Assembly (NCBI GenBank): GCA_938028705.1
Contig: CALIZI010000120.1
Coordinates: 1 to 51,686, forward strand
Length of the DNA stretch: 51,686 bases
Reading direction: 5' to 3'
From: an uncultured Saprospiraceae bacterium
GTDB taxonomy: Bacteria > Bacteroidota > Bacteroidia > Chitinophagales > Saprospiraceae
The notes under the pieces are model-generated. The model made no database searches. It saw only the letters and a list, made by a program, of their open reading frames with translations, and was not told the origin of the DNA. The position numbers and the translations under genes were made by a program. This document shows, piece after piece, positions 9,690 through 51,267 of this stretch (positions are counted from its first letter, which is position 1; each line of letters opens with the position of its first letter).

Positions 9690-12600
9690 TTACTTGGGAA
9701 CTCTTGAACTTATACCATTATTGGCAACCCAAAATATTTTATCCGCTCCATTAATATCACCATCCAGATTCACATCTGCCGGATGATAAATCAAGAAATT
9801 ACCGTTAAAACTACCCCAAAATGCTTTATCCGCTCCGTTAATATCATAGCCCTGTACATCTCCAATTTGCTCGCAATCACCTGCGTACATTGCCCATTTG
9901 CCATTTGGCAGTTGTTTTTGTCCTGCTCCGGTACCATTTGCGGTATAACCTTCTGCATTACGAAAATCATGAGTTAATGTGCGGTCAATTATTGGTATAG
10001 GTTGGGCAGTCATTACTGCTATATGGTTTCGATGTTGAATAGTAACATAGACAGGGCTAATTGCACCCGTAAATCGAATATCACCATCTGGAAAATAAAG
10101 GCTGCCATCTTTACGTAAAATCGCGGCGGCTTGAGCGATTTGAGTATTTCGTGTAATATCGGTATGGAAGGAGACCAAGACCCAATCAACAGTATTTGTA
10201 GGATAATCGGTAATCGTCCAGTCTAAGCCTTCCTGTCCTGAATAGTTCCACGGGGCTTCTGAGTAAGGCTGTTTGCCTTCCGGCAACAAGCTCAAACCTT
10301 GAAGGCTTGTGTTCATGATGTCATTAGTAGGATTGTATGCACCTTCGAGCAGAACATGAAGGTCAGGTAAGAAATAACCAAAGTTGGTTGTACATTCTAT
10401 CAAATCATTATTTTCGTCATATACAGGCTGGTATTGTCCATCAACATCAATACTAAATATCTCGGATTCGCCTGCATGGTCAGAGACCGTCACTTGATAC
10501 ACTCCGGCAGTAAGATTGTCGATTCTCTCGGTGGTTTCTCCTGTACTCCAAAGATAGCTGTAGGGTGCTGTGCCTCCTCTCACTGTGGCTTTCGCAGAAC
10601 CATATACAAGACATTGTGTATGAAATACAGATACACTTACAAGTAATTCATTACTGGTCTCAGTTCCTCTGGGGTAGATATCGTTTATACTTGTACCTAA
10701 AATATTTTCTAATGTTCCGTCAGATTCTATTTTGTTACCCCCTTTTATTTTCATTTCAAATGGAGGGTCATCATTCGTCGGAATGTTCTCTGTGATGATT
10801 ATAAAAGAGACAATTGGTCCATCACATAATATATCTTGTCCGTCCACACGAGTAACAGCACCATAAAATTTATTTTCGGCTTCATCAAATAATCCAAAAG
10901 CCTTTGGTTGTTGGAGTGAAGAAGCTGACACCCTCAGCTCAACACTAGAAACATTTAATGAATCAAAAGCCAATTCAAAAGCAAAGCCATGCGCCCAAAC
11001 CGGATTACCGTCTATATCTTCCACATAGAGGTCATATACCGGACTACCTCCATCTTCAGCTATTCTTTCCACCCGATAACTAAAGTCATTTGACACACTT
11101 TGTGGTGCGCCAAAGCTGTGGATATTATCAAAATTCAAGTAAATTACGTCAAGGTCAGTGCTGTCCACTATGCCGTCACCGTTGCCGTCTTGGTTCATTC
11201 CATTGATACCATCTACGTTTTGCACCCACACTGTAGCGGGTTGTGCAAACCAATCGGTTGTAGGTGTGCCTTGCGCCCATACGATGGTGGAAGTACCTTG
11301 CCGGAACCAGTTGCGTTTAGGTCCGGTAAAGTCATAAGCCAAACCCCAAGTCAAGACATCTTCTTTACTCACAATACCATCGCTGTTGTAATCACCGGGC
11401 CAGACCGATTCGCAAGCATCAGCCGTTGAATCCGTACAAAAATCTTCCCATGATATATCGAAATTATTGCCGTCTGTAATATAAGTGTTTTTGTTGAATG
11501 TCGGATTGATACGACTGCAAAGTACAGACAAATACTCTGAAAAACATCCGCTTAGTTGATTGCCGAATAACCACATCCTATCCAAATTATTCAAATTCTC
11601 AAATGTATAGGGAATGTTGCCACTTAACTGATTATTGGATAAATAGAGATTTGTTAGAACTGAGAACGTGCCTAATTCGAGCGGAATAGTTCCTGTCAAT
11701 GAATTGTCAGATAAATCAAGTGTGCTTAATTTGGTTAATTGACCTAATCCTGTTGGGATATTTCCGTCCAGTGAATTACCGGATAGATTGAGTGTGGTCA
11801 ATTTATCAAGATTACTTAAATTTGATGGAATATTTCCATTGAATTCATTATATAGTAAATCTAAGGTTACTAAGCGATTCATATTCCCTATTGATGCAGG
11901 GATATTACCTGACAGAAGATTATCACTCATATCCAGATTCAATAAATCCAAATCCCCTATTTCCTGCGGTAGTGTGCCGATTAAATCGTTATTAGATAAG
12001 TCCAACCCTGTTACACAGCCCACTATATTTGTAGTGACACCATACCAACTCTCCATAGGTTCATTGAGATTCCATCGATTGAGCCAAGATGCTCCATTTG
12101 TAGCATTGTATAGGGCTACTAAGCTCAAAGAATCACTTTGACGACAAGCAACAGTACTACAGGCTCCCGCACCTGTATTGCAGAAATCTGACCATGTGGC
12201 ATCGAATGTATTACCCACATCAATAGAGGAGGAAACATAAAGTTGATTGCATAGATTTATCAATTCAGGCGGAAAACAGCCTGTCATTTGATTGTTAGAA
12301 ATATTTATATACCTCAACTTAGATAGTTCCCCAATCGTATGTGGAATGCTTCCTATTAATTGATTGTATGATAAATCTAAATGTGACAAATATTGGAACT
12401 TTTCTATTTTTGACGGAATATAACCAGTCATTTGATTACCCTTTAGCGACAAATAGGATAGGCTGTATAACTTACTCAAAGGGCGCACTAAGTAATACGT
12501 ACCATAGGACATACTATTTACTTTATTATAAGATAAGTCTAAATGCTGAAGTGTCGTAAGATATTCTATTCCTTCGGGAATTTCGGAAAAGTCGTTCCAG

Positions 12601-14642
12601 CTTAAATTCAAATAGGTTAAATTTCTCAAATTATTTAATTCGGATGGAACATCTGACAAGCCACAACCTACCAAGCTCAAGCTTTTAAGATTATTCAAAT
12701 TACCAATCGTAATAGGTAAGCTATCAAGATGACCGGGTACTACATAATTATTTATTTCTAAATTTTGTAGGCTAGTCAGATTACCTATTTCTGGTGGAAG
12801 ACCATTCAGTTGTATATTTTGGTTTAGTTTCAAATATGTCAAATTAATCAGGTTGCCTATCTCGGGTGGGAGGTTGGAGATTCTATTGAATTGTAAATTT
12901 AACCTCTTTAAATTAATCAGGTTACCAATCTCTGATGGAAGTTCTCCAAGATTATTATTCTGAAGGTCTAAATTAGTTAAATTCACTAAATTACCAATTT
13001 CAGGTGGAAGGCTATTAAGATAGCTGTATTGTAATTTCAAGACCTTTAAATTCACTAAATTACCAATTTCAGGTGGAACTATACCAATAGATATATCTAA
13101 TATATCTACGCACCCCTCATTACTCAAATCAACTCCCTCCCAAGTATTCACAGGTTGGTTCAATATCCAAGGCAAATCAGGGTTTACTTCATAAATCGCC
13201 ACCAAAGCCAGCGAATCATTCTCCCGACAAAGCACAGGGCATTCCTCTTCGGGTGGTATCTGCGGTATCGGTACTGATGTATAGTAGGTCAGAGCATTAT
13301 ATAAATTGAGCTGTCCATCGCTGACGGTTTTATCATTCAATGCGGGTGATTTGGCGGCAGAGTTGATAATAGCAGTTTTTATTTCGGCGTGGTCTCTTTC
13401 ATGTTGCAAACTCCATAATAAAGCACAAGCACCCGCTACGTGAGGTGTAGCCATAGAAGTACCATCATCGTAACCGTAATTATTTACGGGCAGACAACTG
13501 TAAATCGAATCTCCGGGTGCGGCGATATGTACCATAGTGGGTCCAAAATTAGAGAAATTGGCAAGCTCTCCATCTATATCCGTAGCAGCTACCGCAATGA
13601 TATTATTGGAATTATACGAAGCCGGGAAGAATTTATAGGAGTCGTTGTTTGATCCATAGTTACCGGCACCCGTTACGAAGATATGTCCGGCAGTTGCAGC
13701 ATCTTGTATGGCTTCTTCGAGGAGTGCGTTGGAATGTCCACCGCCCCAACTGTTGTTACTAATCTTTGCTCCAGCATCTATGGCATAATTAAGTGCTGCA
13801 ATGATAGCAGAGACAGGTGCTAAATCTCCGGCATCATCAAAAATTTTCAAGGGGATTATCTGTATGTTTGGTACAACCCCGATAATTCCAATGTTATTAT
13901 TTCCTGTGGCACCAATAATGCCTGCTACGTGAGTGCCATGTCCTGTATCGTCGGTATCTTCCACATCATTATTATTATCTTCAAAATCCCAACCTACAAA
14001 ATCGTCCACAAGACCATTACCGTCATTATCTACTCCATCCAAGTCATCTTTATCAAATCGCCAGATTTGCCCGACTTTTTCGATGACTTTCCCATCTCCA
14101 TCGGCATCTTCACAAAGGTTTTGCCATATATTTCCGACCAAGTCTTCATGCTTCCAATCTACACCTGTATCCAGTACGGCTACTTTTATATACGGACTAT
14201 TATCAATAATATCCCATCCGGTAGGCGCATTGATGGTATCCATATTCCATTGAAGCCCGTAATCGCGGTCATTGGGTATATCATTCTGTACACCTTCAGC
14301 CGCTTTTTCACTATTGCTTATATCGGTACGATAATAGTAGTGGTCGGGTACTATATGTTCAATATCAGGATGATTGCGATACTGTTCGGTGAGTTGCTTG
14401 ATGTCAACTTTACCGTTGGTTTCATTGATTTGCCAAACTTCAATACCATTTTTGAGTAAGCGTTGTTTGGTGACACCCATTTGAATTTTGAGTGCATTTT
14501 TTTGTGCGATGGTTTTATCCTGTTTCATCTTGACTAGGACTCGCCCGGGTACATATTCGGGGTAGTTTTGTGCATAGGTAAATACACACATAAGGCAGCA
14601 TAGCCATAAGGCTAATGTTTTACAAATAGCAGAAGTGTTCAT
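9690..14642 (-). CDS. giant secreted subtilisin-like (S8) protease with LRR, dockerin-like and SprB modules
   Basis: A 1650-residue exported serine protease. It has a signal peptide at 1-24, an inhibitor I9-like propeptide, and an S8 domain with catalytic Asp158 (VAVLDTGVD), His235 (DTGHGTHVAG), an oxyanion Asn near 328 and Ser396 (DGTSMATPHVAG). A calcium-site-like DGDGKVIEKVG/DGVDNDGNG insert lies near 180-215. Two plant-type LRR blocks (about 470-870 and 880-1080) each start with a DSLALVA/DSLSLVA cap. Dockerin-like repeats (GDYNSDGIVSKEDVL, DGNGDGIVDSTDLD) follow, then an SprB-type repeat (YSYLWSTGETTERIDNLTAG). The Saprospiria-type C-terminal region (TVDWVLVSFHT, VTIQHRNHIAVMTAQPI) ends in two more D-x-N/D loops and SSRVPK. 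No classical T9SS tail is seen. Transcribed divergently from the 497-aa helical protein. Confidence 0.88.
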   Translation of the reverse strand: MNTSAICKTLALWLCCLMCVFTYAQNYPEYVPGRVLVKMKQDKTIAQKNALKIQMGVTKQRLLKNGIEVWQINETNGKVDIKQLTEQYRNHPDIEHIVPDHYYYRTDISNSEKAAEGVQNDIPNDRDYGLQWNMDTINAPTGWDIIDNSPYIKVAVLDTGVDWKHEDLVGNIWQNLCEDADGDGKVIEKVGQIWRFDKDDLDGVDNDGNGLVDDFVGWDFEDNNNDVEDTDDTGHGTHVAGIIGATGNNNIGIIGVVPNIQIIPLKIFDDAGDLAPVSAIIAALNYAIDAGAKISNNSWGGGHSNALLEEAIQDAATAGHIFVTGAGNYGSNNDSYKFFPASYNSNNIIAVAATDIDGELANFSNFGPTMVHIAAPGDSIYSCLPVNNYGYDDGTSMATPHVAGACALLWSLQHERDHAEIKTAIINSAAKSPALNDKTVSDGQLNLYNALTYYTSVPIPQIPPEEECPVLCRENDSLALVAIYEVNPDLPWILNQPVNTWEGVDLSNEGCVDILDISIGIVPPEIGNLVNLKVLKLQYSYLNSLPPEIGNLVNLTNLDLQNNNLGELPSEIGNLINLKRLNLQFNRISNLPPEIGNLINLTYLKLNQNIQLNGLPPEIGNLTSLQNLEINNYVVPGHLDSLPITIGNLNNLKSLSLVGCGLSDVPSELNNLRNLTYLNLSWNDFSEIPEGIEYLTTLQHLDLSYNKVNSMSYGTYYLVRPLSKLYSLSYLSLKGNQMTGYIPSKIEKFQYLSHLDLSYNQLIGSIPHTIGELSKLRYINISNNQMTGCFPPELINLCNQLYVSSSIDVGNTFDATWSDFCNTGAGACSTVACRQSDSLSLVALYNATNGASWLNRWNLNEPMESWYGVTTNIVGCVTGLDLSNNDLIGTLPQEIGDLDLLNLDMSDNLLSGNIPASIGNMNRLVTLDLLYNEFNGNIPSNLSNLDKLTTLNLSGNSLDGNIPTGLGQLTKLSTLDLSDNSLTGTIPLELGTFSVLTNLYLSNNQLSGNIPYTFENLNNLDRMWLFGNQLSGCFSEYLSVLCSRINPTFNKNTYITDGNNFDISWEDFCTDSTADACESVWPGDYNSDGIVSKEDVLTWGLAYDFTGPKRNWFRQGTSTIVWAQGTPTTDWFAQPATVWVQNVDGINGMNQDGNGDGIVDSTDLDVIYLNFDNIHSFGAPQSVSNDFSYRVERIAEDGGSPVYDLYVEDIDGNPVWAHGFAFELAFDSLNVSSVELRVSASSLQQPKAFGLFDEAENKFYGAVTRVDGQDILCDGPIVSFIIITENIPTNDDPPFEMKIKGGNKIESDGTLENILGTSINDIYPRGTETSNELLVSVSVFHTQCLVYGSAKATVRGGTAPYSYLWSTGETTERIDNLTAGVYQVTVSDHAGESEIFSIDVDGQYQPVYDENNDLIECTTNFGYFLPDLHVLLEGAYNPTNDIMNTSLQGLSLLPEGKQPYSEAPWNYSGQEGLDWTITDYPTNTVDWVLVSFHTDITRNTQIAQAAAILRKDGSLYFPDGDIRFTGAISPVYVTIQHRNHIAVMTAQPIPIIDRTLTHDFRNAEGYTANGTGAGQKQLPNGKWAMYAGDCEQIGDVQGYDINGADKAFWGSFNGNFLIYHPADVNLDGDINGADKIFWVANNGISSRVPK

Positions 14643-14744
14643 AATACTTTTTTAATGACTTGAATTGCGATAATCTCGGTAAGTATAAGATTGGTAGTAG
14701 TTTGAGTTAACCACAACTCAAATTAGATAATAAATTTGACAATA

Positions 14745-14752
14745 CAAAAGTA
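14745..14752 (-). promoter_or_regulatory. candidate -7 box of the S8 protease gene
   Basis: The minus strand reads TACTTTTG, matching TAnnTTTG, about 100 nt upstream of the protease ATG. A near match on the plus strand, TATTTTTTG, begins at about 14755 and could serve the divergent gene. A small hairpin, TTTGAGTT/AACTCAAA (14701-14722), would fall in the protease leader. Confidence 0.4.
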
Positions 14753-14849
14753 TAGTATTTTTTGTGTACATTTATCCATTAAAAAATAAGTAAAATACGA
14801 AATTATTTTTCACAATTTCAAACTAAGTCATTGATTATCAATTAGTATA

Positions 14850-16343
14850 ATGTCTAAAAATAAAAATAAAAAAGCGCGTCCATTTTTGGTTATCGAACTT
14901 TTAAATAGTTTTTCTAAGCGTGAATTAGTGAATTTAGGAAATTTTGTGTCGTGCAATTATCATAATACAGACACTCATGTAGTAGCTTTATTGAATGTGT
15001 TGCGCGAAGAAGTGATTCATAAAAAAAAATTTGACGATATGGTTCAGTGTGTTGTATATCGTGCCACATTTACTAAAAAAACTGCGCCAAAAAAGATCTT
15101 AAATCAGCGACAAAGAGAGGCACTTCGGGCAAAAATGACGATTTTGCTACGATTGATTGAAAGATTTTTAACCTATGAAGCATTGAACAAAAATACTGCA
15201 TACGGGGCAGACTTATTATATGAACAACTCCTTCAACGAGGGCAATTCTGGTTATTCAACAGACATATCGCAAAAGATACAAAAACACTAAATGCAAAAA
15301 GTGAAAAAGGAATTGAGGACTATGCTCACCAATTCAAAATGCAATCTGCATTACTAAAGTATTTACATCAAAAAGGACTTGTTATCACAAAAGATAATCT
15401 TCCCGAATTAATTAAAAACTTAGATATTTATTATTTGCTCAATAAATTGGAATTGCATGGTACTTGTATTGCACTTACTCATTTTTCAGCAAAGAAATCT
15501 TACGATTTTACTCCTATGAAAGCAGTTGATGCTTTACTTGAAATACCCGAATATGCCAATCATCCACTTATACGTATTCATCGGGTCGCATTAGATTTAT
15601 TGGAGAATAATACAATTGAGTTATATGAAAAATTAATTGCTTTACTCAATACATACGAATCGTCTATCTCACCAAAAAACTTAAATAACTTTTATAAAAT
15701 TGCAGGTAATTTTTGTGGCAAAAAAATTAAAGAAGGCAATAGTAAGTATTACAGGAAAGCATTTGACTTATATCTTGTTATGGATGACAAGAATTTACTG
15801 ATGGAAGACAGCTATATGCCCGTTGGTAAACTTAAAAACATTATTACTTTGTCTTGTCGTCTTAATGAATTTATATGGGCAGAAAAAACTATAGAAAAAT
15901 ACCGCCCTAACCTCGAAAAAGTACATGCTGATAGCGTTTACCAATTTAACATGGGGGCAGTAGCCTTCTATCAAAAGGACTTCAAGACGGCATTATCGCA
16001 CTTCATCCGTGTAGAAAAAGTCAATCTGGCTTATGATATAGATTGTCGCATCATGCTCCTCAAGTCTCACTATGAACTCGACAAGGAATACGACGAGCGC
16101 ACCATACGTACCTTTCTACTCTCCGAGCGATTTATCCAAAGTCATAAAGGCTTGACCTCAAATAACAAAAAAGCCTACAAAAATTTCGTTCGCATACTAA
16201 TCAATATCTATAATATGCGGCATGGTGTAGGTAAGATGACACCAGAGAAAATCCGGCGAAAGTTAGAAAAATTAGAATATGTGAGCGATAAACAGTGGTT
16301 ATTGAAAAAGATAGAAGAATTGGAAAAAAAGATAAAGCGATAA
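14850..16343 (+). CDS. uncharacterised helical protein, paralog of the gene at 45.8-47.3 kb
   Basis: A 497-residue, lysine-rich, alpha-helical cytoplasmic protein without signal peptide or membrane segment. The N-terminal part (LLNSFSKRELVNLGNFVSCN) resembles a short conserved domain. The second half looks TPR-like (VYQFNMGAVAFYQKDFKTAL, then KSHYELDKEYDERT). I do not recognise a named family. The 491-aa protein encoded at 45792-47267 is a clear paralog along its full length (YHFNMGAIAFYQGDYKRAL; KSHYETDQEYDERT). Both paralogs lie head-to-head with a giant exported protease carrying LRRs, which suggests a linked function such as regulation of, or preparation for, export; this is inference. 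The ATG at 14850 follows a stop-rich AT region and is the natural start. Confidence 0.85.
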   Translation: MSKNKNKKARPFLVIELLNSFSKRELVNLGNFVSCNYHNTDTHVVALLNVLREEVIHKKKFDDMVQCVVYRATFTKKTAPKKILNQRQREALRAKMTILLRLIERFLTYEALNKNTAYGADLLYEQLLQRGQFWLFNRHIAKDTKTLNAKSEKGIEDYAHQFKMQSALLKYLHQKGLVITKDNLPELIKNLDIYYLLNKLELHGTCIALTHFSAKKSYDFTPMKAVDALLEIPEYANHPLIRIHRVALDLLENNTIELYEKLIALLNTYESSISPKNLNNFYKIAGNFCGKKIKEGNSKYYRKAFDLYLVMDDKNLLMEDSYMPVGKLKNIITLSCRLNEFIWAEKTIEKYRPNLEKVHADSVYQFNMGAVAFYQKDFKTALSHFIRVEKVNLAYDIDCRIMLLKSHYELDKEYDERTIRTFLLSERFIQSHKGLTSNNKKAYKNFVRILINIYNMRHGVGKMTPEKIRRKLEKLEYVSDKQWLLKKIEELEKKIKR

Positions 16344-16346
16344 AAC

Positions 16347-16382
16347 AAAAAAGCGTCCTTACCATCGGCAAGAACGCTTTTT
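16347..16382. terminator. bidirectional terminator between convergent genes
   Basis: AAAAAAGCGTCCTT (16347-16360) pairs with AAGAACGCTTTTT (16370-16382) with one mismatch. T-runs flank the hairpin on both strands. It lies directly after the helical-protein gene and 22 bp before the stop of the S74 protein gene. Confidence 0.85.
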
Positions 16383-16404
16383 ATAAGTTTATATATTTTA
16401 AAAA

Positions 16405-17616
16405 TCACTTTGCAATGACCATACGCTTCGTATCCACTATATTACCATTGACCACCAATGAGTAACTATACGTACCCGCTGCAATAGTTCCGGCTTTGAT
16501 TTGAAGTTGACCTGCGCCCATCTGTGCAATACGCTCACTGTGAATGAGTTGACCATTGGTATCAAAAATATTGACGACCGCCTGAGTTGCATCCGCAGGA
16601 ACGTGATATTTGATAAGTGTATTACCATTAAACGGATTGGGTTGGTTTTGCTCCAAGTATGCGCCACGTCCGTCAAGGTTGATGCTTTGCGTATTGATAG
16701 TGCCGTTTGAATTGTTTAAGACCGCACTCATCATTTCTTTCATATCTGCCAATTCTTGTTCTAAACTTTCAATTTTATCCTGCTGTTCTTTGACGGCATT
16801 GATCAGCATGTACTTGATAGAAGATTCATTGATGTGCAGATATGTTTCCGATGATTTCTTTGTATTTGTTCTAACATCTATCTCCTCACCATTTTCAACA
16901 ACTTCTATCTCCGTTTCTTCATATTTAAATTCTCCGACCAATTCGGGGGCGACTTTTCTAAGCTCTTGTGCATAAATACCGACATGCACCAACTCTGAAT
17001 CTGTACCCGCTTTACCATTATAGTTGTAGGAGATAGGTGACAAGGCAAGCACTTCCTCTAATCCATAATCAAATTTTGTGGTATTGGTTTTCAAACGTTT
17101 ATCACTTGTATTGAGCAATGTACCTGTATAACGTACTACCCCATTTACATCAAGTAATGCCGCTGCATTAGGATTAGTCGTTCCGATACCTACTCTACCC
17201 GATGAGGTAATCGCCATTCGGTTGGTAGAAGCTGTACGGAAATAAATAGAAGCCGCTTCGGTGGCTTGAATCAAGAACGGATTGGTGCCTCTGTGGAACA
17301 TAATACTACTTCCCGCACCGGTATAACCAAATCGGAAACCATACAGAGGATAAGCAGTCGTACCAATACAATCAATGGCGGCAGTACCATTTCCTGTTCT
17401 GCCGGAGCCGATTCTCAAATAAGCCGCAGCGGTACCTGCATCCTGACCTACATTTAAGAAATTGCCACGCACATTGGCATTGCCATTGACATCCAGTTTT
17501 TGAGTAGGTGTGTCAATACCTATGCCTGTATGTCCATTAGGAGCTTTAACGTAAACTTGTGAAAAAGCTAACATTGGGAGAAGGGTCATTAAAATGATAT
17601 AAATAATATTTTTCAT
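16405..17616 (-). CDS. secreted tail-fibre-like protein with S74 chaperone domain and T9SS tail
   Basis: A 403-residue exported protein. It has a signal peptide at 1-19 and a Gly/Thr-rich beta region (GIGIDTPTQKLDVNGNANV, VGIGTTNPNAAALLDVNG) typical of trimeric fibres. A Peptidase_S74 intramolecular chaperone domain starts at TSDKRLKTNTTKF, with the Ser-Asp pair where S74 domains self-cleave. A coiled coil (EQQDKIESLEQELADMKEMM) and a T9SS sorting domain (NQPNPFNGNTLIKYHV to the end) follow. S74 domains usually fold and cleave off phage spikes; in Bacteroidota the combination with T9SS tails is common and not a sign of prophage. The surface role is unknown. Confidence 0.87.
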   Translation of the reverse strand: MKNIIYIILMTLLPMLAFSQVYVKAPNGHTGIGIDTPTQKLDVNGNANVRGNFLNVGQDAGTAAAYLRIGSGRTGNGTAAIDCIGTTAYPLYGFRFGYTGAGSSIMFHRGTNPFLIQATEAASIYFRTASTNRMAITSSGRVGIGTTNPNAAALLDVNGVVRYTGTLLNTSDKRLKTNTTKFDYGLEEVLALSPISYNYNGKAGTDSELVHVGIYAQELRKVAPELVGEFKYEETEIEVVENGEEIDVRTNTKKSSETYLHINESSIKYMLINAVKEQQDKIESLEQELADMKEMMSAVLNNSNGTINTQSINLDGRGAYLEQNQPNPFNGNTLIKYHVPADATQAVVNIFDTNGQLIHSERIAQMGAGQLQIKAGTIAAGTYSYSLVVNGNIVDTKRMVIAK

Positions 17617-40823: not shown

Positions 40824-42770
40824 ATGAAGAAATTACTGACCCTCCTTGGTGCGCTTTGCCTATTTATCACATCAAACACCTTCGCGCAACCCACTGACTG
40901 TCAGTCAGACCGTTATCAACAACAAGTATTCAACAACATTCGCGTGACCACCGATATTACTTACGGCTCGGCGCAGAATGTACTTGGATTTAATCAAAGC
41001 CTTGAATTGGATTTTTACGAACCCGACCCCACCGAAGAGTATCTCGGAAAACGTCCGCTTGTCGTCATGTTTTTTGGTGGTGCTTATATCTTGGGCAGCA
41101 AGGGCGATGCCGATATGGTGGCTTGGTGCGATAGCCTTGCCCACTACGGATATGCCTGTGCATCAGTCGAATATCGCTTGGATAATGCCCCTAATTTTGC
41201 CTTGCCGGGTAGAGGCGTTCGGGCTGCGTATCGTGCTATTCAGGACGGACGCGCAGCTATTCGCTACCTGCTCGAAGACCCCAATGGCTTCGGTTTCAAT
41301 GTTGACCCCGACCGCATCTATACAGGCGGCGAAAGTGCCGGAGCGATTACCGCCATTCATATTGCTTACATGGAAGAATCCGAGCGACCTGCCGATACCT
41401 ATTCCAGTTTTCTCTTATCTGATCAAGGCTGTATTGACTGCTCCGGCAACAGCTATGTGCAGCCTTTCACTATTGCCGGTATCATCGACCTTTGGGGCGC
41501 AACGCTTGATCTTGATTTCTTAGATGTTGCCGAAAATGTACCCATGGTCATCATTCATGGTGAAGACGATTTTATTGTGCCTTACACATCGGGTGCGCCT
41601 TTTAATGTACCCTTATTTCCGACCATGTACGGTGCAGTGCCGATGGATGCCGAGCTGACCGCAAAAGGAATTTGTCATCAATTTTTCTCGTATCCGGGCG
41701 AAGGACATGTTTTTTATGGCTTACCGACAGGCGTAGTCACCTTCCCGAATCAATATTGGGAACCTGTATTTACACAAGGTCACGAATTTTTATATGACAA
41801 AACAATGCAATTTGATTCGCCAGTACCCGCAGGCGAACTCATGGTTTGTCAGGATGCCACAGAGACCTATGAAGTTCCTGCTACGGCGGGTTCTATCTAT
41901 TGTTGGGATGTGGTCAATGGAACTATTCTTTCCACCAACAACAACCAAGTCACCGTTCAATGGGGCAGTTCGCCGGGCTTCCTGACGCTGACCGAAACCA
42001 ACTGCATTGATGTAGTCGGTACATCACAAACGATTGAAGTTCTGCCTTTTAATTGTTGCGCTCCGGTGAATTTGACGATTCAATTTGATGGCTTCCCAAG
42101 TCAGACCAGTTGGGAAATTCTGGATGCAAACGGCAGCGTTGTGGCTTCCGGCGGCACTTATGCAGGTGCGTCCGGCAACAGTTCCGTTACCGAAAGTACC
42201 TGTCTGCTTGGTGGTTGTTATACCCTCAATTTTTATGATGCCATAGGCAACGGCATGTGTCCGTTCCAGAGTGCTGCGACAAGTGCAGGAACATTTATCA
42301 CGCCCGGAACACTGATTACGCCGGGAAGCGTGGTGGCTACTTTGGGGTCGGTAGTCGCGCCGGGCTTATGTGGCAATTACGCCTTGTCTGATGCTACCGG
42401 AACACTGACCTCTGGTGGCGGTGGTTTTGGAAGTAGTCAGAGCAATACTTTTTGTGTCAATGGCATCACGCCATTTACCCAAGACAATCAGACGGCTTAT
42501 TTTAAAACAAATCAAACAAACACTTCGCAGGTAAGCATACAGCCGAATATAGTCAGAGACCAGACAATCTTGTATTATTATTTTGATAATGAGGCTGATA
42601 TACAGATTAATGTCGTCAATATGTCGGGGCAAACAGTTCAGCAATACATTCGCAGTGCAGAAGATGCTCCTCAATTGGTACTTGATGTCAATGACCTACA
42701 TTCGGGGATTTACTTCGTTCAATGTATTAATAAAGAAAAAATTATTACTAAAAAAATTATTAAGAAATAA
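40824..42770 (+). CDS. secreted carboxylesterase-like alpha/beta-hydrolase with T9SS tail, paralog 1
   Basis: A 648-residue exported hydrolase: signal peptide at 1-21 (cleavage after TFA), alpha/beta-hydrolase fold with oxyanion stretch VVMFFGGAYIL, nucleophile Ser171 in GGESAGAIT, Asp in HGEDDFIVPY and His in GEGHVFYG. A PKD-like domain (TETYEVPATAGSIYCWDVVN) and a repeated-beta region with the pattern FYDAIGNGMCPFQSA follow, then a T9SS domain (VSIQPNIVRDQTILYYY to KKIIKK). Probable extracellular esterase or peptidase; substrate unknown. The next gene, 1 kb downstream on the same strand, is a full-length paralog. Confidence 0.9.
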   Translation: MKKLLTLLGALCLFITSNTFAQPTDCQSDRYQQQVFNNIRVTTDITYGSAQNVLGFNQSLELDFYEPDPTEEYLGKRPLVVMFFGGAYILGSKGDADMVAWCDSLAHYGYACASVEYRLDNAPNFALPGRGVRAAYRAIQDGRAAIRYLLEDPNGFGFNVDPDRIYTGGESAGAITAIHIAYMEESERPADTYSSFLLSDQGCIDCSGNSYVQPFTIAGIIDLWGATLDLDFLDVAENVPMVIIHGEDDFIVPYTSGAPFNVPLFPTMYGAVPMDAELTAKGICHQFFSYPGEGHVFYGLPTGVVTFPNQYWEPVFTQGHEFLYDKTMQFDSPVPAGELMVCQDATETYEVPATAGSIYCWDVVNGTILSTNNNQVTVQWGSSPGFLTLTETNCIDVVGTSQTIEVLPFNCCAPVNLTIQFDGFPSQTSWEILDANGSVVASGGTYAGASGNSSVTESTCLLGGCYTLNFYDAIGNGMCPFQSAATSAGTFITPGTLITPGSVVATLGSVVAPGLCGNYALSDATGTLTSGGGGFGSSQSNTFCVNGITPFTQDNQTAYFKTNQTNTSQVSIQPNIVRDQTILYYYFDNEADIQINVVNMSGQTVQQYIRSAEDAPQLVLDVNDLHSGIYFVQCINKEKIITKKIIKK

Positions 42771-43790: not shown

Positions 43791-45719
43791 ATGAAAAAAA
43801 TTTATATTTCGCTTGCAGTATCACTTTTAATGTGTCTCCCAAATATGGAAGCACAACCTACTGACTGTGTATCAGACCGCTATCAAGCACCAATATTCAA
43901 TAATATTCAACGCACCAATGACATTACTTACGGCTCGGCAGTCAATGTATCGGGTGCTACACAAAGCCTTGAACTGGATTTTTATGCACCCGCCCCTGCC
44001 GATGAATACCTTGCCAAACGTCCTCTGGTCGTGATGTTTTTTGGCGGGTCATTTTTGGGAGGCGATAAGCAATATGCAGATATGGTGGCTTGGTGTGACA
44101 GCCTTTCCCGCTATGGATATGTCTGTGCATCAGTTGAATACAGATTAGATAATGCTTTCAATTTTCTGTTTCCCGACCAAGCGGAACGTGCGGCATATCG
44201 TGCCATTCAAGACGGACGTGCTGCGATTCGTTTCCTGCTCGAAGACCCCAATGCTTTCGGCTTCAATATTGACCGCGACCATATATATGTAGGCGGCAAT
44301 AGTGCGGGGGCGATTACGGCAATTCATATTGCTTATGCCGATGACTCGGAGCGACCTGCAGCAACTTATGCAGCACCGGATCAAGGTTGTGGAGATTGCT
44401 CAGGGAATACTTACGTACAGCCTTTTACGATTGCCGGAGTAATTGACCTTTGGGGTGCGATATTTGACCCTCAAATGATTGATGCTGCCGATAATGTGCC
44501 TATGGTCGTTGTGCATAGCGATGATGATACTACGGTGCCATACAATACCGGACCGCCTTTTGGTGTAGGACTTTTCCCGACAGTGTATGGCGCAATACCT
44601 ATGGTGGCAGAAATGACTGCCTTGAATATTTGTCATCAGTTTTATCCGTATCAGGGAGTGGGGCATTCCTTTTATCTTTCGGGTAATAGTATGAATGGTT
44701 TTTGGCCCGCTGTTTTTAATCATGGACAGACCTTTTTATATGACAAAACACTTCAATTTGACTCGCCTGTACCTGCGGGGGCATTGACCGCCTGTGTGGG
44801 GGATACGGAAACGTACAGCGTACCCGCCAATGCGGATTCGTATTTCTGTTGGAATGTGGTGAACGGTACGGTGATTTCTACGAATAATGAGCAGATTACA
44901 GTGCAATGGAATGCGGCAGGTACAGGTCAGTTGGAGTTGACGGAAGCCAGTTGTCTTGATGTCATCGGTACGGCACAAACGATTGATATAGAAGTGAGTG
45001 CGTGTAGTTGTGCAAATGTAGATTTAGCGATTCAACACGATGGATTTCCGAACCAAAACAGTTGGGATATAGTGGATGCCAACGGTGCGGTTGTGGCTTT
45101 GGGCGGTCCTTATGGCGGACCTGCTTATGGTAATACCGCCGAAATCGCTTGTCTGCCTGACGGTTGTTATACTTTGAATTTTTATGATTCGCTCGGTAAT
45201 GGTATGTGTCCGTTCAATTCTGTTGCAGCGAGTAGTGGAATATTTATCACCCCCGGAACGCTGATTACGCCGGGGAGCGTAGTGGCAACATTGGGGTCGG
45301 TCGTGACACCGGGCTTATGTGGCAGCTATACCCTGACCGATGCACTGGGCGGAACACTGGCTTCGGGCGGCGGTGCGTTTAGTGGTACACAAGTCAGTAC
45401 CTTTTGTTTGAGTGGAGGTATCGCTCCATTGTGGCATGATGATACAGAGGTTGCTATGAAACTACATACTCAAACTACTGCCTTGAAGGTGTATCCGAAC
45501 CCTGCACATCATCAATTGACGGTTGATTATGTGCTGGAAATTTCCGGTACTGCACAACTGCGTATCATCGATATGGCAGGAAAAACGATACAAGAACTCC
45601 CGCTTTCTGTAAATGTGGATGAGTTGCAATTTGATGTGAGTGACTTGGTGCCGGGTATGTACTTTGTGCAGTTGATGAATGGTGATGAATTGGTGACTGA
45701 AAAATTTGTCAAGCAGTAA
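43791..45719 (+). CDS. secreted carboxylesterase-like alpha/beta-hydrolase with T9SS tail, paralog 2
   Basis: A 642-residue paralog of the gene at 40824, colinear over its full length: signal peptide at 1-21, VVMFFGGSFLG oxyanion stretch, nucleophile Ser171 in GGNSAGAIT, Asp in HSDDDTTVPY, His in GVGHSFYL, a PKD-like domain, the FYDSLGNGMCPFNSV region and a T9SS tail (VYPNPAHHQLTVDYVLE to KFVKQ). The near-identical stretch GTLITPGSVVATLGSVV is shared by both. The catalytic triad is intact in both copies, so neither is dead. The stop is followed directly by a 20-bp perfect inverted repeat. Confidence 0.9.
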   Translation: MKKIYISLAVSLLMCLPNMEAQPTDCVSDRYQAPIFNNIQRTNDITYGSAVNVSGATQSLELDFYAPAPADEYLAKRPLVVMFFGGSFLGGDKQYADMVAWCDSLSRYGYVCASVEYRLDNAFNFLFPDQAERAAYRAIQDGRAAIRFLLEDPNAFGFNIDRDHIYVGGNSAGAITAIHIAYADDSERPAATYAAPDQGCGDCSGNTYVQPFTIAGVIDLWGAIFDPQMIDAADNVPMVVVHSDDDTTVPYNTGPPFGVGLFPTVYGAIPMVAEMTALNICHQFYPYQGVGHSFYLSGNSMNGFWPAVFNHGQTFLYDKTLQFDSPVPAGALTACVGDTETYSVPANADSYFCWNVVNGTVISTNNEQITVQWNAAGTGQLELTEASCLDVIGTAQTIDIEVSACSCANVDLAIQHDGFPNQNSWDIVDANGAVVALGGPYGGPAYGNTAEIACLPDGCYTLNFYDSLGNGMCPFNSVAASSGIFITPGTLITPGSVVATLGSVVTPGLCGSYTLTDALGGTLASGGGAFSGTQVSTFCLSGGIAPLWHDDTEVAMKLHTQTTALKVYPNPAHHQLTVDYVLEISGTAQLRIIDMAGKTIQELPLSVNVDELQFDVSDLVPGMYFVQLMNGDELVTEKFVKQ

Positions 45720-45732
45720 GACGGTGGACGAC

Positions 45733-45800
45733 GGACGGTAAACGGCTAACGAAAAATGGGTTTGATTATCAAATCGTTTATCGTTAGCCGTTTACCGTCC
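45733..45800. terminator. inverted repeat acting as bidirectional terminator, overlapping the next gene's 3' end
   Basis: GGACGGTAAACGGCTAACGA (45733-45752) is perfectly inverted at 45781-45800. The right arm contains the stop codon (45792-45794) and last codons of the minus-strand gene, which therefore ends in DGGR, unlike its paralog. The loop holds TTTGATTATCAAA. It lies between convergent genes. Confidence 0.7.
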
Positions 45801-47267
45801 ACCATCTAGTTCTTCTATCTTTTCCATCAACCACTTTTTATCACTATTGACTTCCTGCCGTTCTAATTTGTCTTTGATATTTTCCAATTTCATTTTAGTT
45901 GCCCGATGACGAACACGATAGATGTTGATAAGCATACGAATAAAATTTTTATAGGCTTTTTTGTTTCTTGGTGTGAGTTCTTTATTTTCATTGAAGTATT
46001 TTTCGGTGGAGCGGAAGATTTGGAGGGTGCGCTCGTCGTATTCTTGGTCGGTTTCGTAGTGGGATTTGATAATCATATTGCGGCAATCAATATTATACGT
46101 CAGGTTAATATGTTCTACCCTCACCAAGTGATGCAAAGCCCTTTTATAATCACCTTGATAAAAAGCAATCGCCCCCATATTAAAATGATAAACACTCTCC
46201 CGAATCGGTTTTTTAACCGCATTTTTGTATTTCTCCGTCAATACACTTGCCCATGCAAACTGACCTACACGACAGCCTGCCGTAATGGTATTTTTGAATT
46301 TACCTATCGGAATATAATTGCCTTCAATAAGTAAATCCTTCTCATCCATTATCCGGTATAATTCAAATGCTTCCTTATAACCCAATTTTCCTTCCCGAAT
46401 CTGTTGAGCGCAAAAATTAGTCGCGGCAATATAAAAACCGTTCAAATCACCTCTTGGAATAGCTGCCTCATTATGGTGAAGTATTTTGAGTAGTTTGTGG
46501 TAGTTTTTGTCTGTACCGTTTTTTATCAAATCTATTGTTGCCCGATAGATTTGAACTAAGGGATGAGAAGCATATTGCGGTAAATCCAACATCAAAAACA
46601 TCAGCCCCACAGAAGTCATATCATACTGACGCAAAGTAAGATTTTGCAAAGTGAGTGCAGACATATACAAACTCAATTTCTTTAAAAAATACTGAATATC
46701 CGTATGATACATCAATTCATTGAGGTTATCACGATTCATTAATTCACCGCTACGGTGCAGATAATTTAAAGTATTTTCTTCGATAAATTGTTGATGCCGA
46801 TGATGTTCAAAATCTTTATACAATTGAGCCTCAAGCTGTTTTTTATTTTTATTAATATGTCGTTGAAATAAACTGAATTGTTGTTTTTCCAATATTTTTT
46901 GTAATAATAAATCACCACCGTAAGCATTATTCTCATTAAGGGCTTCCAATTTTAAAAATTGCTCTGCCAATCGCGTGAGCACACTCATCTTGGTACTCAA
47001 TTGCTTCTTTTCCAATGCACTCAATCCATTCTTTTTACTTTTTTTATTAAATAATTTATTATAAATAATTCCCTCTAATTCAACATTAAATTGACGCTTG
47101 CGCCACACATCCCGCTTAATGATGTCCAATAATGCTACGATAGTTTTATCCGTATTAAAATAGCTGCAAGAAGCCAAATGCCTTAATCCGTCCAATTCCT
47201 TTTCCGAAAAAGCATTTAATAAATCAATACAAGTATTTTTTCGATTATTTTCAGATTTTTTATTCAT
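45792..47267 (-). CDS. uncharacterised helical protein, paralog of the 14.9-16.3 kb gene
   Basis: A 491-residue, charged, alpha-helical cytoplasmic protein, related to the 497-aa protein encoded at 14850-16343 over its whole length (LLNAFSEKELDGLRHLASCS against LLNSFSKRELVNLGNFVSCN; ENNAYGGDLL against KNTAYGADLL). No signal peptide, membrane helix or known catalytic motif; the C-terminal half is TPR-like. It is divergent from the M4 protease gene, as its paralog is from the S8 protease gene. Its last four residues come from an inverted-repeat arm. Function unknown. Confidence 0.85.
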   Translation of the reverse strand: MNKKSENNRKNTCIDLLNAFSEKELDGLRHLASCSYFNTDKTIVALLDIIKRDVWRKRQFNVELEGIIYNKLFNKKSKKNGLSALEKKQLSTKMSVLTRLAEQFLKLEALNENNAYGGDLLLQKILEKQQFSLFQRHINKNKKQLEAQLYKDFEHHRHQQFIEENTLNYLHRSGELMNRDNLNELMYHTDIQYFLKKLSLYMSALTLQNLTLRQYDMTSVGLMFLMLDLPQYASHPLVQIYRATIDLIKNGTDKNYHKLLKILHHNEAAIPRGDLNGFYIAATNFCAQQIREGKLGYKEAFELYRIMDEKDLLIEGNYIPIGKFKNTITAGCRVGQFAWASVLTEKYKNAVKKPIRESVYHFNMGAIAFYQGDYKRALHHLVRVEHINLTYNIDCRNMIIKSHYETDQEYDERTLQIFRSTEKYFNENKELTPRNKKAYKNFIRMLINIYRVRHRATKMKLENIKDKLERQEVNSDKKWLMEKIEELDGGR

Positions 47268-47351
47268 TTTTTAATTAAAAATTATTAATAATCAAATTTT
47301 TATACAATAAAATAAAAATAAATTATAATAGGAAAATGCAAAATTAGTGTA

Positions 47352-47381
47352 CAAATATATCAAAAATCCCCTTTACATTTG
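47352..47381. promoter_or_regulatory. candidate divergent -7 boxes
   Basis: CAAATATA (47352-47359) reads TATATTTG on the minus strand, for the helical-protein gene. TACATTTG (47374-47381) is on the plus strand, for the M4 protease. Both match TAnnTTTG. The -33 boxes are unclear. The plus-strand start near 47388 would give an ~85-nt leader containing the hairpin at 47401-47455. Confidence 0.5.
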
Positions 47382-47400
47382 TATTGTAAGTAAAACAAAA

Positions 47401-47455
47401 CCGTACAGGCGACTTCAATCGCCATGTGACAGTGCGATTAAAATCGCCTGTACGG
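47401..47455 (+). promoter_or_regulatory. leader hairpin of the M4 protease mRNA
   Basis: CCGTACAGGCGA (47401-47412) pairs perfectly with TCGCCTGTACGG (47444-47455), and AATCGC (47417-47422) with GCGATT (47434-47439), giving a stem of about 22 bp with two mismatches. It ends exactly 17 nt before the ATG at 47473, the same distance as the hairpin before mdh. Confidence 0.7.
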
Positions 47456-47472
47456 GTAAAAACAAATCAACC

Positions 47473-50400
47473 ATGAAATATGTAATCAAAACGCTACTAT
47501 GTTTGCTGATAATCAGCCAACTATACGCCCAAGACGACCCACCCAAAGACAAAACAAAAAGCACCAACTGGCTCACCCTAAAAGCCGCCGACCAAGCCCC
47601 CGCCTCCAACTTGGCGACCAACAAAGCCGCCCTGTACCTCGACACCGACGACGAACTGACACTTTTCTCTACAAACGACGATGCACTCGGCTATCGCCAC
47701 TACCGCTACCAACAAAGCTACAAAGGCATTCCGGTAGAAGGCGCGATTTACCTCATGCACGAAAAAAACAATCGCGTACAACATGCTAACGGCAAACTCG
47801 TCCACGACCTCGACCTCTCGACCAGCCCTGCGCTAAGTGAAGCAAGCGCATTGCAGGCTGCGCTCGCACACGTCGATGCCACGCTATACGCATGGGATGA
47901 ACCCACGCATGAGCGTAGCCTCAAGGAAGTCAAAAAGCGCACAGATGCGACCTTTTACCCTTCGGGTGACTTGGTGATACTTGACCCCGACTTCAAGCAA
48001 AAAGCCGCGAATCATCGCTTGGCGTATAAGTTTGACATCTATGCCGTAGAGCCACTCACGCGACAGGTCGTGTATGTAGATGCGATAAACGGCACGGTCT
48101 TGAAAACCCTCGAAAAAATCCACGACTGCACCGATACGCCCGCTTCCGGTACGACCAATTACTCTGGCAATCGAAGCCATACCGCTTGTCAGGCGGGCGG
48201 CACTTATACCTTGAAAAACAGTATCGGCGGCGGTATGCAAGTCTATAATGCCAATAATACCACAGGCAATCCACAAATTCCCTTTACCGACCCCGATGGC
48301 TTTTTTGAAGCTGACCCAACGGCAAATGAAGTCCACTGGGCAACCGAAAAAACCTACGAATATTTCCTCAACACACACGGCAGAAACAGCCTTGATGACA
48401 ATGGCATGGCTTTGTTCAGTTGGATTCACTTCCGTACAAATTATAATAATGCCTTTTGGAATGGCTCATGGATGACCTACGGCGATGGTGATAATAACAC
48501 CTTCAGCGCACTCACCGCACCCGATGTGGTGGCACACGAAATGGCGCATGGCGTGACGGATTTTTCTGCCGACCTGATTTATAGCTACGAATCGGGCGCA
48601 CTCAATGAGTCTTTTTCGGACATCTTCGGCGAAGTCGCGGAAAACTACATGCGCGGCACTAACGACTGGCGCATGGGCGCAGATTTCACCGTAAGACCCG
48701 GCAAAACCTCACTCCGCAACATGAGCAATCCCAATGACCCCAATGCCCTCACCCAACAACCGGACACCTATCTCGGTGATTTTTGGTACTCAGGCTCTGG
48801 CGATAATGGCGGCGTACACTTCAATAGCGGTGTACAGAATTTTTGGTTTTACTTGCTCTCCGAAGGTGGCAGCGGTACAAATGATAATGGAGACGATTAT
48901 ACGGTCAATGCCATCGGTATGACCAAAGCCGCTGCCATCGCATATCGTAACCTCACTGTTTATCTAAGCCAAAATTCCCAATACGCAGATGCACGTACAG
49001 GCGCGATACTGGCAGCGACGGACTTATACGGCGCAGGCTCTGATGAAGTGGCGCAAGTGACAGCGGCTTGGTGTGCTGTGGGTGTGGGAGGCTGTAACAC
49101 TCCGCCTGACCCCGAACCACCTTCTGGCTCTTGCGACAGACAAAGTGACTCACTGGCTCTTGTGGCTTTGTATAATTCTACGAATGGACCGAACTGGACG
49201 AATACTTGGGATTTGAGTCAGCCTATGGATAGTTGGTATGGGGTGAGTCTTACTGATGAAGGTTGTGTTCGATATTTAAGTTTATCGTCCAATAATTTGA
49301 TTGGTACTATTCCTGTAGAAATTGGTGATTTAATAAAATTAGAAAGTATATATTTGCCTATTAATCAATTAACAGGAGGCATACCAGTAGAAATTGGAAA
49401 TTTGGATAAGTTGAGGTATTTAAATTTATACAACAATCAATTGTTTGGTAATATTCCTTCCGAAATCGGAAATTTAAGTAGTTTAGAAGACTTATGGCTG
49501 AATAATAATCAACTATCAGGTAGTATTCCTTCTGAAATTGGAAATTTATTTAATTTAAAAAATATACATTTGTATAATAATCAATTATCTAGTATTCCTT
49601 CTGAAATTGGAAATTTGCCTGAGTTGATTCAGTTATCTCTGGGTAATAACCAATTGTCCAGTAATATCCCCGCCGAAATCGGAAATTTGATTAAGTTAAA
49701 AGTTTTAAACATACATTCTAATCAACTAACTGGTAGTATCCCTTTTGAACTTGGTAACTTAGCGAATTTAGTCTCTTTAAATTTGAGTAATAACGAATTG
49801 ACTGGCGGCATACCTAGAGAATTAGGAAATTTAAGTAGTTTGTCATCCTTACACTTAGGTGGCAACCAACTGACTGGCAGCATACCAGAGGAAATTGGAA
49901 ATTTGAGTAATTTGTTACAATTATTTTTAGGTCAAAATCAACTTGCTGGTTGTTACGAGTCAAATCTATCAAATTTGTGTTCCCAATTAAATTCCCTTTA
50001 TATATCTGGTGGCAGCAACAACTTCGATGCCCCCTGGGAAGACTTCTGCCTCAACGGTTCAGGCAGTTGCGACGGTTCAGCCCCTGCCCCTGTCTGGCCC
50101 GGCGACTTCAATACCGACGGCATCGCTGATATTCAAGACTTGCTCTACTGGGGCATAGCATCAGGTTTTACGGGAGCTACTCGCCCCAATGCCTCCTTCG
50201 CGTGGTCTGCCCAAGACTGCCCCGATTGGTCATCCTCCGTCAATGGCATCAACTCCAAGCACCAAGACGGCGACGGTGATGGCACGGTCAACACCAATGA
50301 CCTCAATGCCCTCATCCAAAACTACGGCAATACGCACAATATCGCACCACTCGCATACGGCACCGGAGCCATACAGTATCGCCTCGAACTCGTCAGTAGC

Positions 50401-51267
50401 GTACCAAGCGGCAGTACGGTTACGAATACTTATGACTTATATGTAGAATCTCCATCGGGTGTGCCGGTGAGTACGCATGGTTTGGCGTGTAGTCTTGATT
50501 TTGATGACTTACCTGTCGTGAGTACGAGTGTCGATGTCAGCAATTCATCCCTGATGCCCGACGAGCATATCGACATCTATCTCAGCACTCAAAACCGTCT
50601 CGACCTCGCCCTCACCCGCACCGACCAAAACAATCAAACTCTTGATGGTCCGGTAGCAGGTATTATTATGGTTTCAGACAATATTGCGACCGGTGATGAC
50701 TTTGAAATACACATCGGCAGCGGACGCATGATGTCTGCCGATGGTGCATTGACCGTAATAAGTGATGCGACTTTTTATGGTGGATTTACAGGAGGTCCTA
50801 CTATCACAGATAATCTTTCTGTCAATGTTTCTGTCATACATGAGGGTTGCGATACACAAGGCTCGGCTACGGCGCAAGTTACAGGTGGTACAGGGTCTTA
50901 CACTTACGCATGGAGTACAGGTGCGACTATAGATGCTATCTCTGGTCTGTCATCTGGTCTGTATGCTGTCACAGTTAGTGATGCTGCCGGACTTAGTATT
51001 ACTACATCTTTTAATATCATTGGACAAACGCCTATCTATGATGCCACCGGAAATTTACTTTGTGGTAGTATCTGTCCCGATTATCTCGCTCCAAGCGGTA
51101 TTACAGGTAGCGGATTGTACAGTGCAGGCAATGCGCTCAACGCCGATGCTACCATTCCCGCAGGAAATACCGCTGAGTACAAAGCCGGACAAATCATAGA
51201 ACTCAAACAGGGTTTTAAGGTACAGCCTGATGCAGGGTTTTCGGCAGAGATTGAAGATTGCCAATAG
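47473..51267 (+). CDS. giant secreted thermolysin-like (M4) protease with LRR, dockerin-like and SprB modules
   Basis: A 1264-residue exported zinc protease. The ATG at 47473 is chosen because it begins the signal peptide MKYVIKTLLCLLIISQLYAQ; the frame is open further upstream but that runs through a leader hairpin. An FTP/PepSY propeptide precedes the M4 domain with HEMAH (355-359) and third ligand Glu379 (ALNESFSD), then GGVHFNSGVQNFWFYLL. From about 600: a CDRQSDSLALVALYNSTNGP cap and ten or more plant-type LRRs (NLSSLEDLWLNNNQLSGSIP), dockerin-like loops (GDFNTDGIADIQDLL, DGDGDGTVNTNDLN), an SprB-type repeat (YTYAWSTGATIDAISGLSSG) and a 3-coathanger-stack-like end (QGFKVQPDAGFSAEIEDCQ). 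Module order after the protease matches the S8 protein. Confidence 0.9.
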   Translation: MKYVIKTLLCLLIISQLYAQDDPPKDKTKSTNWLTLKAADQAPASNLATNKAALYLDTDDELTLFSTNDDALGYRHYRYQQSYKGIPVEGAIYLMHEKNNRVQHANGKLVHDLDLSTSPALSEASALQAALAHVDATLYAWDEPTHERSLKEVKKRTDATFYPSGDLVILDPDFKQKAANHRLAYKFDIYAVEPLTRQVVYVDAINGTVLKTLEKIHDCTDTPASGTTNYSGNRSHTACQAGGTYTLKNSIGGGMQVYNANNTTGNPQIPFTDPDGFFEADPTANEVHWATEKTYEYFLNTHGRNSLDDNGMALFSWIHFRTNYNNAFWNGSWMTYGDGDNNTFSALTAPDVVAHEMAHGVTDFSADLIYSYESGALNESFSDIFGEVAENYMRGTNDWRMGADFTVRPGKTSLRNMSNPNDPNALTQQPDTYLGDFWYSGSGDNGGVHFNSGVQNFWFYLLSEGGSGTNDNGDDYTVNAIGMTKAAAIAYRNLTVYLSQNSQYADARTGAILAATDLYGAGSDEVAQVTAAWCAVGVGGCNTPPDPEPPSGSCDRQSDSLALVALYNSTNGPNWTNTWDLSQPMDSWYGVSLTDEGCVRYLSLSSNNLIGTIPVEIGDLIKLESIYLPINQLTGGIPVEIGNLDKLRYLNLYNNQLFGNIPSEIGNLSSLEDLWLNNNQLSGSIPSEIGNLFNLKNIHLYNNQLSSIPSEIGNLPELIQLSLGNNQLSSNIPAEIGNLIKLKVLNIHSNQLTGSIPFELGNLANLVSLNLSNNELTGGIPRELGNLSSLSSLHLGGNQLTGSIPEEIGNLSNLLQLFLGQNQLAGCYESNLSNLCSQLNSLYISGGSNNFDAPWEDFCLNGSGSCDGSAPAPVWPGDFNTDGIADIQDLLYWGIASGFTGATRPNASFAWSAQDCPDWSSSVNGINSKHQDGDGDGTVNTNDLNALIQNYGNTHNIAPLAYGTGAIQYRLELVSSVPSGSTVTNTYDLYVESPSGVPVSTHGLACSLDFDDLPVVSTSVDVSNSSLMPDEHIDIYLSTQNRLDLALTRTDQNNQTLDGPVAGIIMVSDNIATGDDFEIHIGSGRMMSADGALTVISDATFYGGFTGGPTITDNLSVNVSVIHEGCDTQGSATAQVTGGTGSYTYAWSTGATIDAISGLSSGLYAVTVSDAAGLSITTSFNIIGQTPIYDATGNLLCGSICPDYLAPSGITGSGLYSAGNALNADATIPAGNTAEYKAGQIIELKQGFKVQPDAGFSAEIEDCQ

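Follow-up and report, generated by a model that had tools for sequence, protein, structure and literature searches.

Peptide receptors of the RRNPP group, Rap, NprR and Rgg among them, bind a peptide in the groove of a superhelix of tetratricopeptide repeats (TPRs) and, Rap excepted, carry an N-terminal helix-turn-helix (HTH). The size criterion for such receptors is given as 250-500 amino acids (aa) (PMC10075063). A further criterion is an adjacent small (10-100 aa) secreted propeptide. NprR is described as activating NprA, an exported metalloprotease (PMC4873490). Here we analyse a contig of 51,686 nucleotides (nt) from an uncultured Saprospiraceae bacterium (CALIZI010000120.1; below, the window), which contains two head-to-head gene pairs, each encoding a predicted helical protein of about 490 aa and a large exported protease with leucine-rich repeats (LRRs). 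Our reading, to which we give a probability of about one half, is that the helical protein belongs to an undescribed family of cytosolic regulators, each dedicated to the exported partner that it faces. This reading was drawn from sequence and a predicted fold; what is shown is the head-to-head layout, the export signals on most partners, an intergenic core in the LRR/protease branch of the family and the TPR-like predicted fold.

The likeness to the RRNPP receptors lies in the size, in a predicted TPR superhelix nearest to those of Rap and NprR, and in a gene that adjoins the gene of an exported product. The window proteins, at 497 and 491 aa, fall within the 250-500 aa range, which the longest family members (538 aa) exceed. 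Unlike those receptors, the helical proteins have no recognised HTH, their N-terminal helical domain gave no clear match, their partners are mostly large, and the host is Gram-negative, of the class Bacteroidia. Of small exported open reading frames (ORFs), one was present on the downstream side in 1 of 127 cases, versus 24 of 278 in the control, and a loose rule called them between the paired genes in 9 of 106 cases; Phr/NprX-like propeptide genes, sought in both places, were not found. Since no propeptide gene was found, the likeness points to a possible way of working and not to membership of the group. The PorA-PorXY-SigP pathway of the type IX secretion system (T9SS) is alike in that an exported C-terminal-domain protein is coupled to transcription control, and differs in working through a sensor kinase, a response regulator and an extracytoplasmic function sigma factor, with no TPR protein or divergent pair mentioned in the accessible part of the account (PMC7712824).

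The helical family and its exported partners

The first pair consists of an S8 protease gene on the minus strand (9690..14642; 1650 aa, with LRRs, DSLxLVA caps and a SprB-like repeat) and, across a divergent intergenic region of 207 nt (14643..14849), helical copy 1 on the plus strand (14850..16343; 497 aa), in which the N-terminal domain is followed by the TPR-like superhelix. In the second pair, helical copy 2 occupies the minus strand (45792..47267; 491 aa) and an LRR protease of the M4, thermolysin type the plus strand (47473..51267). The frame of the M4 gene is open from 47347 (an ORF of 1306 aa), and its start is very likely 47473, at Met43, which is followed by a signal-peptide-like stretch such as also begins the translation of the S8 protease. 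With that start the second intergenic region is 205 nt (47268..47472). Helical copies 1 and 2 share 46% identity across 488 columns. All four ORFs reported by the first-pass annotation, an earlier reading of the letters alone, are present, the proteases with their catalytic and LRR domains: in Pfam, the S8 protease matches S8 (E 1.6e-55), LRR_14 (E 4.6e-44) and the Fervidolysin prodomain, and the M4 partner matches M4 (E 3.5e-35), M4_C (E 2.6e-47), FTP and LRR_14 (E 5.5e-44). Of the downstream order that the proteases had been said to share, the LRRs were recovered in both; the SprB repeats, at 27.8 bits (S8) and 26.1 bits (M4), just miss the Pfam cut-off of 28, and the dockerin-like loops, visible by eye, have no match to a dockerin model in Pfam. 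The M4 partner has a C-terminal GCX_COOH domain (50.8 bits, cut-off 26), a candidate T9SS sorting tail; the S8 partner gave no such match, and Por_Secre_tail matches neither.

The family is large in this lineage. The window is contig 120 of an 8.0-Mb genome in 483 contigs, which holds 39 family matches; E is at most 1.1e-5 for all but one, and a single fragment at a contig end is among these 38. Among 40 genomes (own included) 39 carry the family, same-genus relatives having 21 to 38 matches each to the 39 of the own genome, with at most 39 candidates scored per genome. In a class-wide sample, 48 of 198 genomes (own included) have a match, most of them one, with at most 8 candidates scored in each, and four of the 48 (G050, G097, G226, G227) have weak partial matches only; the named relatives are Saprospiraceae and Chitinophagales metagenome-assembled genomes. 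Family members are 448-538 aa long (median 485), with a median isoelectric point (pI) of 9.0 (n=127), versus 6.3 for 95 cytosolic background proteins. The two window proteins have no Pfam match above cut-off, none to a sigma region and none in NCBIfam; TPR_2 matches copy 2 at E 0.0023, under the Pfam cut-off, and other members gave weak TPR, ARM and stray matches only (best E 8.3e-5). No signal peptide was seen, from which a cytosolic location would follow. An identity as a defence system was dropped, as 37 members had no PADLOC match at E 0.01. No paper on the pair or the helical family was found in the open-licence PMC literature, preprints being outside that scope. Helical copies also adjoin one another at L043:5693-8677, where the second copy has the first upstream, in the place of an exported partner, and two copies lie 1.5 kb apart in L171.

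The 48 genomes yielded 127 distinct copies. Of these, 118 diverge from their upstream gene, and 106 both diverge from it and face a signal-peptide protein, as called by a rule of our own, not SignalP, which was tuned once after its first version missed evident cases; the background genes of the same loci gave 70 and 34 of 277. Divergent copies form the majority in 45 of the 48 genomes. Split by origin, the own genome has 35 divergent copies out of 38 distinct ones, 34 of which also face a signal-peptide protein, the corresponding figures being 56 and 48 of 60 in relatives and 28 and 25 of 30 in 29 distant genomes drawn from the 48 with a match, 24 of them with a single match and 28 from families other than that of the window. 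The partners of the distant copies are unrelated exported proteins. Some of the partners scored as non-secreted are evident misses of the rule and others are truly of housekeeping type (e.g. L114, L107). On the downstream side a convergent arrangement is found for 75 of 125 neighbours. Genes were called as the longest ORF, with neighbours under 110 aa and without signal peptide passed over. The 127 copies omit those under 400 aa (e.g. L042), identical ones, those whose stretch has no gene upstream of the copy (e.g. L142, L143, L145) and the L120 copy, which the gene caller missed; the 60 relative regions were picked from the listed matches and omit G002, G003, all but one of G005, one of G004 and unlisted matches, and loci L154-L171 served for structure alignments only. 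The first-pass annotation had set against its own proposal the picture of a numerous family beside random genes: numerous it is, with 38 places in this genome, and its neighbours, by the counts of 118 and 106 of 127, are non-random.

The upstream gene is also retained, unlike the downstream one. Among copies from different genomes with 25-35% identity, the upstream neighbours were homologous in 560 of 2517 comparisons and the downstream neighbours in 14 of 2461; at 35-45% the counts were 378/853 versus 9/754, at 45-55% 66/115 versus 0/99 (444/968 versus 9/853 for 35-55% pooled), and at 55-80% 31/39 versus 10/36.

In a tree of the 127 helical proteins, a quick build with 37 of 124 inner branches open, the 37 partners of the S8, M4 and LRR-cap classes (by phmmer, S8 17, M4 14, LRR-cap only 6) all belong to copies of one 49-row clade (SH-aLRT 100). 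S8 and M4 partners are separated by 3 changes on this tree, versus a mean of 10.6 and a minimum of 7 in 300 shuffles, which argues that the partner type was inherited with the helical lineage, yet swapped more than once. The earlier claim that the pairing outlived an exchange of the catalytic domain is thus borne out: 31 partners are of the S8 or M4 type, the tree requires at least 3 switches between the two, and the pairing recurs in many genomes. The companion claim, that the helical protein is tied to an LRR/SprB chassis, is not supported: 81 of 118 divergent partners match no S8, M4 or LRR-cap query (the 81 including partners cut by contig ends and a few cases, e.g. L035 and L040, with an LRR gene second in line; the other 9 copies are non-divergent), and the chassis was rejected as the common factor on this count. 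The distant relatives with their unrelated partners speak the same way. The partners range from 80 to 2092 aa and have no common mature domain; among the 89 complete C-termini of the 106 signal-peptide partners, 50 match Por_Secre_tail and 9 GCX_COOH at E 0.001. Of the 17 partners labelled short, 12 go with a 16-row branch (support 100). One branch faces short exported proteins of about 120-170 aa (L052, L053, L054, L056, L058, L059, L061 and L037:10624-11043), several with a C(T/I)V(V/I)-type tail and often near paralogous genes beginning MKTLKVKSILFSLLA.

The converse link to the chassis fails as well, since 11 of 21 contigs of the own genome with an LRR-cap match are without a helical gene. 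Six of the 11 have a sigma-like gene nearby (L173, L175, L176, L179, L180, L182), which passes the Pfam cut-off in L175, L176 and L182 and is weak in the other three. In all but L173 this gene is divergent from exported genes; in L179 it faces the LRR gene directly, and in the other four it faces an exported cluster that contains the LRR gene. The second gene of these sigma/anti-sigma-like pairs has TPRs above the Pfam cut-off in L176 and L182 and weak ones in L179 and L180. The divergent position and the TPR-bearing second gene recall the window pairs, and the helical proteins of the window differ in standing alone, without a sigma region. Neither kind of gene was seen in L172, L174, L177, L178 or L181.

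An AlphaFold model of the 497-aa protein (mean pLDDT 89.3) is nearly all helix. Foldseek with the whole model returned generic TPR rows, none at E <=0.001, and the family profile A1 matches an engineered TPR protein at E 1.1e-9. In VIA-align, rows 1-12 are Rap or NprR (Z 13.2-15.4, root-mean-square deviation (rmsd) 4.5-11.9, 272-299 residues), the best being RapI (4i1a; Z 15.4, rmsd 4.5, 284 residues). We treat as a lead the resemblance of the modelled C-terminal two thirds to Rap/NprR receptor folds, since a difference below 1 Z counts as a tie and scores up to 14 can arise between unrelated helical models; a family absent from the match lists of the whole or N-terminal model is not thereby excluded.

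The intergenic core

Common to the window pairs is a core made of two TAnnTTT(G/A) boxes that point outward and are separated by 14 nt. In pair 1 (14744..14774; ACAAAAGTA-N14-TACATTTA) a partner-facing TAnnTTTG box stands back-to-back with a helical-facing box ending in A; this core is retained in an alignment with L134, L135, L149 and L150 and was also found by a pattern search of the genome. In pair 2 (47351..47382; ACAAATATA-N14-TACATTTGT) both strands match, and the core is also an inverted repeat. It is the best-kept block in the intergenic alignments of both window subclades and is conserved across species; no long conserved block appears in the alignment for the subclade whose partners have 280 aa.

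The pattern CAAAnnTA-N14..16-TAnnTTT(G/A) occurs in 8 of 32 own, 8 of 55 relative and 1 of 27 distant regions, versus 0.13, 0.03 and 0.03 in shuffles. Partner-facing boxes (CAAAnnTA, read as TAnnTTTG toward the partner) are found in 24, 43 and 10 of these regions, versus 8.7, 11.9 and 5.1. Fifteen of the 17 core-bearing regions belong to tree rows of the LRR/protease clade, the others being the fragment L042 and the distant L183. With a leading A, the core gives 27 rows in the 8-Mb genome, or 23 distinct sites, of which 9 lie in helical intergenic regions, as do all 4 sites that match on both strands; there is none on the 11 LRR-cap contigs without a helical gene. The remaining sites look like chance, since a control pattern gives 18 rows. 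The stretches examined around eight of them contain no helical gene; two of the eight fall within ORFs at positions other than a gene start, and another falls within the beginning of a large exported ORF. In relatives, core sites lie shortly before helical genes in G001 (C79, C194, C290), G003 (C346), G004 (C14 twice, C84, C111) and G005 (C13, C166 twice, C419). These counts supersede an early promoter count on 19 background regions, as do those for the genus loci below. By eye, a TAATNATCA-like string seems to recur in several branches, some tens of nt ahead of the helical start codon.

As TAnnTTTG is the -7 box of Bacteroidota promoters (PMC2483708, PMC7366714), the simplest reading of the core is that of two back-to-back promoters sharing DNA. 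The earlier suggestion that the helical protein acts on the expression of its partner would fit such a shared core, with the restriction that the core is found mainly in the LRR/protease branch.

A proposed dedicated regulator and its rivals

Working as a regulator, the helical protein, a small N-terminal helical domain joined to a Rap/NprR-like TPR superhelix, would read a signal in its TPR groove; the paired genes would share a bidirectional promoter region, and the protein would switch transcription from it, tuning the amount of the exported partner. Contact with DNA or RNA polymerase, the nature of the signal and the direction of regulation are suppositions of this scheme. Pairs would have been duplicated and the exported domain swapped, the control end being kept. 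To our knowledge, how Bacteroidota choose the surface and secreted proteins that they make is largely an open question, and if the scheme holds each exported protein would have its own one-to-one control gene and a function could be assigned to a family to which no Pfam, NCBIfam or PADLOC name was matched; were the Rap/NprR likeness functional, peptide-receptor logic would be present in a Gram-negative class. A bolder version, which we hold to be unlikely as matters stand, is that Bacteroidia possess an undescribed set of Rap/NprR-like receptors in the cytosol, each serving a single locus. Every receptor would be linked through a shared bidirectional promoter to one exported protein, often a T9SS protein, and would receive a peptide or status signal that this partner provides. 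The outcome would be a one-to-one feedback on the surface proteome, with nearly 40 pairs in one Saprospiraceae-type genome.

Several results weigh against the regulator. No DNA-binding domain was recognised in the helical proteins by Pfam scans, HTH included; residues 1-165, modelled alone (pLDDT 87.5), gave no clear match in the PDB (best Z 5.0); the Rap/NprR rows exceed LGN (Z 13.0) by 0.2-2.4 Z in a comparison where unrelated helical models can score up to 14; and the high pI fits other kinds of binding too. Helical-facing boxes are modestly enriched (own 17/32, relative 25/55, distant 10/27, versus 11.5, 14.5 and 5.0 in shuffles), and a spacing of 25-32 nt also exceeds the shuffles (4/32, 7/55 and 1/27 versus 0.40, 0.50 and 0.17). 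Across six relatives the core gave 100 matches and the control 88, so that most are chance. In the genus loci the core is present in only 14 of 63 family regions, versus 1 of 46 other divergent and 4 of 192 co-directional regions, the control including L212-L219, fetched for holding the pattern, and the family count missing the second window pair, whose frame overruns the core; 12 of the 14 are copies of the LRR/protease clade. The core may be two overlapping promoters with no operator. Random pairs of distant copies are also homologous upstream in 269 of 1739 cases and downstream in 5, so that shared domains such as sorting tails inflate part of the upstream signal. LRR-cap genes occur without a helical gene, among them an S8-LRR-SprB protease resembling that of the window (L174:5729-11440, in a stretch that was viewed).

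An unlikely alternative is that the protein is a dedicated cytosolic escort, its TPR solenoid binding the signal-peptide end or unfolded body of the partner and keeping it in a state fit for export through Sec and the type IX system, while the shared promoter matches the amounts. TPR solenoids often bind peptides, and an escort suits both the 106 of 127 copies that face a signal-peptide protein and the partner C-termini, with the T9SS type A sorting domain in 50 of 89 and GCX_COOH in 9. Against an escort stand the lack of a common mature domain in the partners, a good part of which have no recognised sorting tail, and the LRR-cap proteins that this genome encodes without a helical gene; an escort does not predict the intergenic core, and most T9SS cargo elsewhere is not known to need an escort of its own. 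We prefer the regulator, which better explains the layout, the core, the exchange of exported domains and the sigma-like genes found in the same slot. Its sensing version, with the partner as signal source, is a receptor for a peptide or for export status: as in Rap, NprR and Rgg, the TPR groove would bind a peptide from the exported partner or its activity, giving feedback. The first twelve structural rows, led by RapI, a protein of receptor size adjoining an exported gene, and the activation of the metalloprotease NprA by NprR (PMC4873490) all suit this version, but the near-absence of small exported ORFs downstream (1/127) and between the genes (9/106), together with the mostly large partners, makes it quite doubtful.

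It is also conceivable, although we consider it improbable, that one ancestral divergent pair was duplicated and passively inherited, the orientation being a relic without any working link between the products. Such descent would account for the confinement of all 37 S8, M4 and LRR-cap partners to one 49-row clade, for the 12 of 17 short partners in one 16-row branch and for the 38 places in one genome. It sits badly with the retention of the upstream gene but not of the downstream one, with a layout kept in 28 of 30 distant cases whose partners are unrelated, and with a core conserved across species. Self-protection, in which the helical protein would neutralise the protease or other activity of its partner before export, seems very improbable: both window partners are peptidases and each pair has its own paralogue, but many partners match no enzyme, such as the LRR-only and the short cysteine-bearing proteins, and S8 and M4 enzymes have prodomains, which are present in the window proteases. 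Immunity genes, moreover, usually lie in the same operon.

Other features of the window

An Rfam scan of the window found no known RNA element, a tRNA alone reaching the gathering threshold. In the leader of the M4 gene, 47401-47455 can form a hairpin with 27-nt arms that are 85% complementary (CCGTACAGGCGA...TCGCCTGTACGG). It is a member of a dispersed repeat resembling repetitive extragenic palindromes, with 165 half-site matches genome-wide, versus 0 for the control, many of them as inverted pairs at a spacing of some 40-90 nt. Just before pair 2 lie two paralogous BD-FAE esterase genes in the same direction (40824-42770 and 43791-45719), whose products have T9SS sorting tails.

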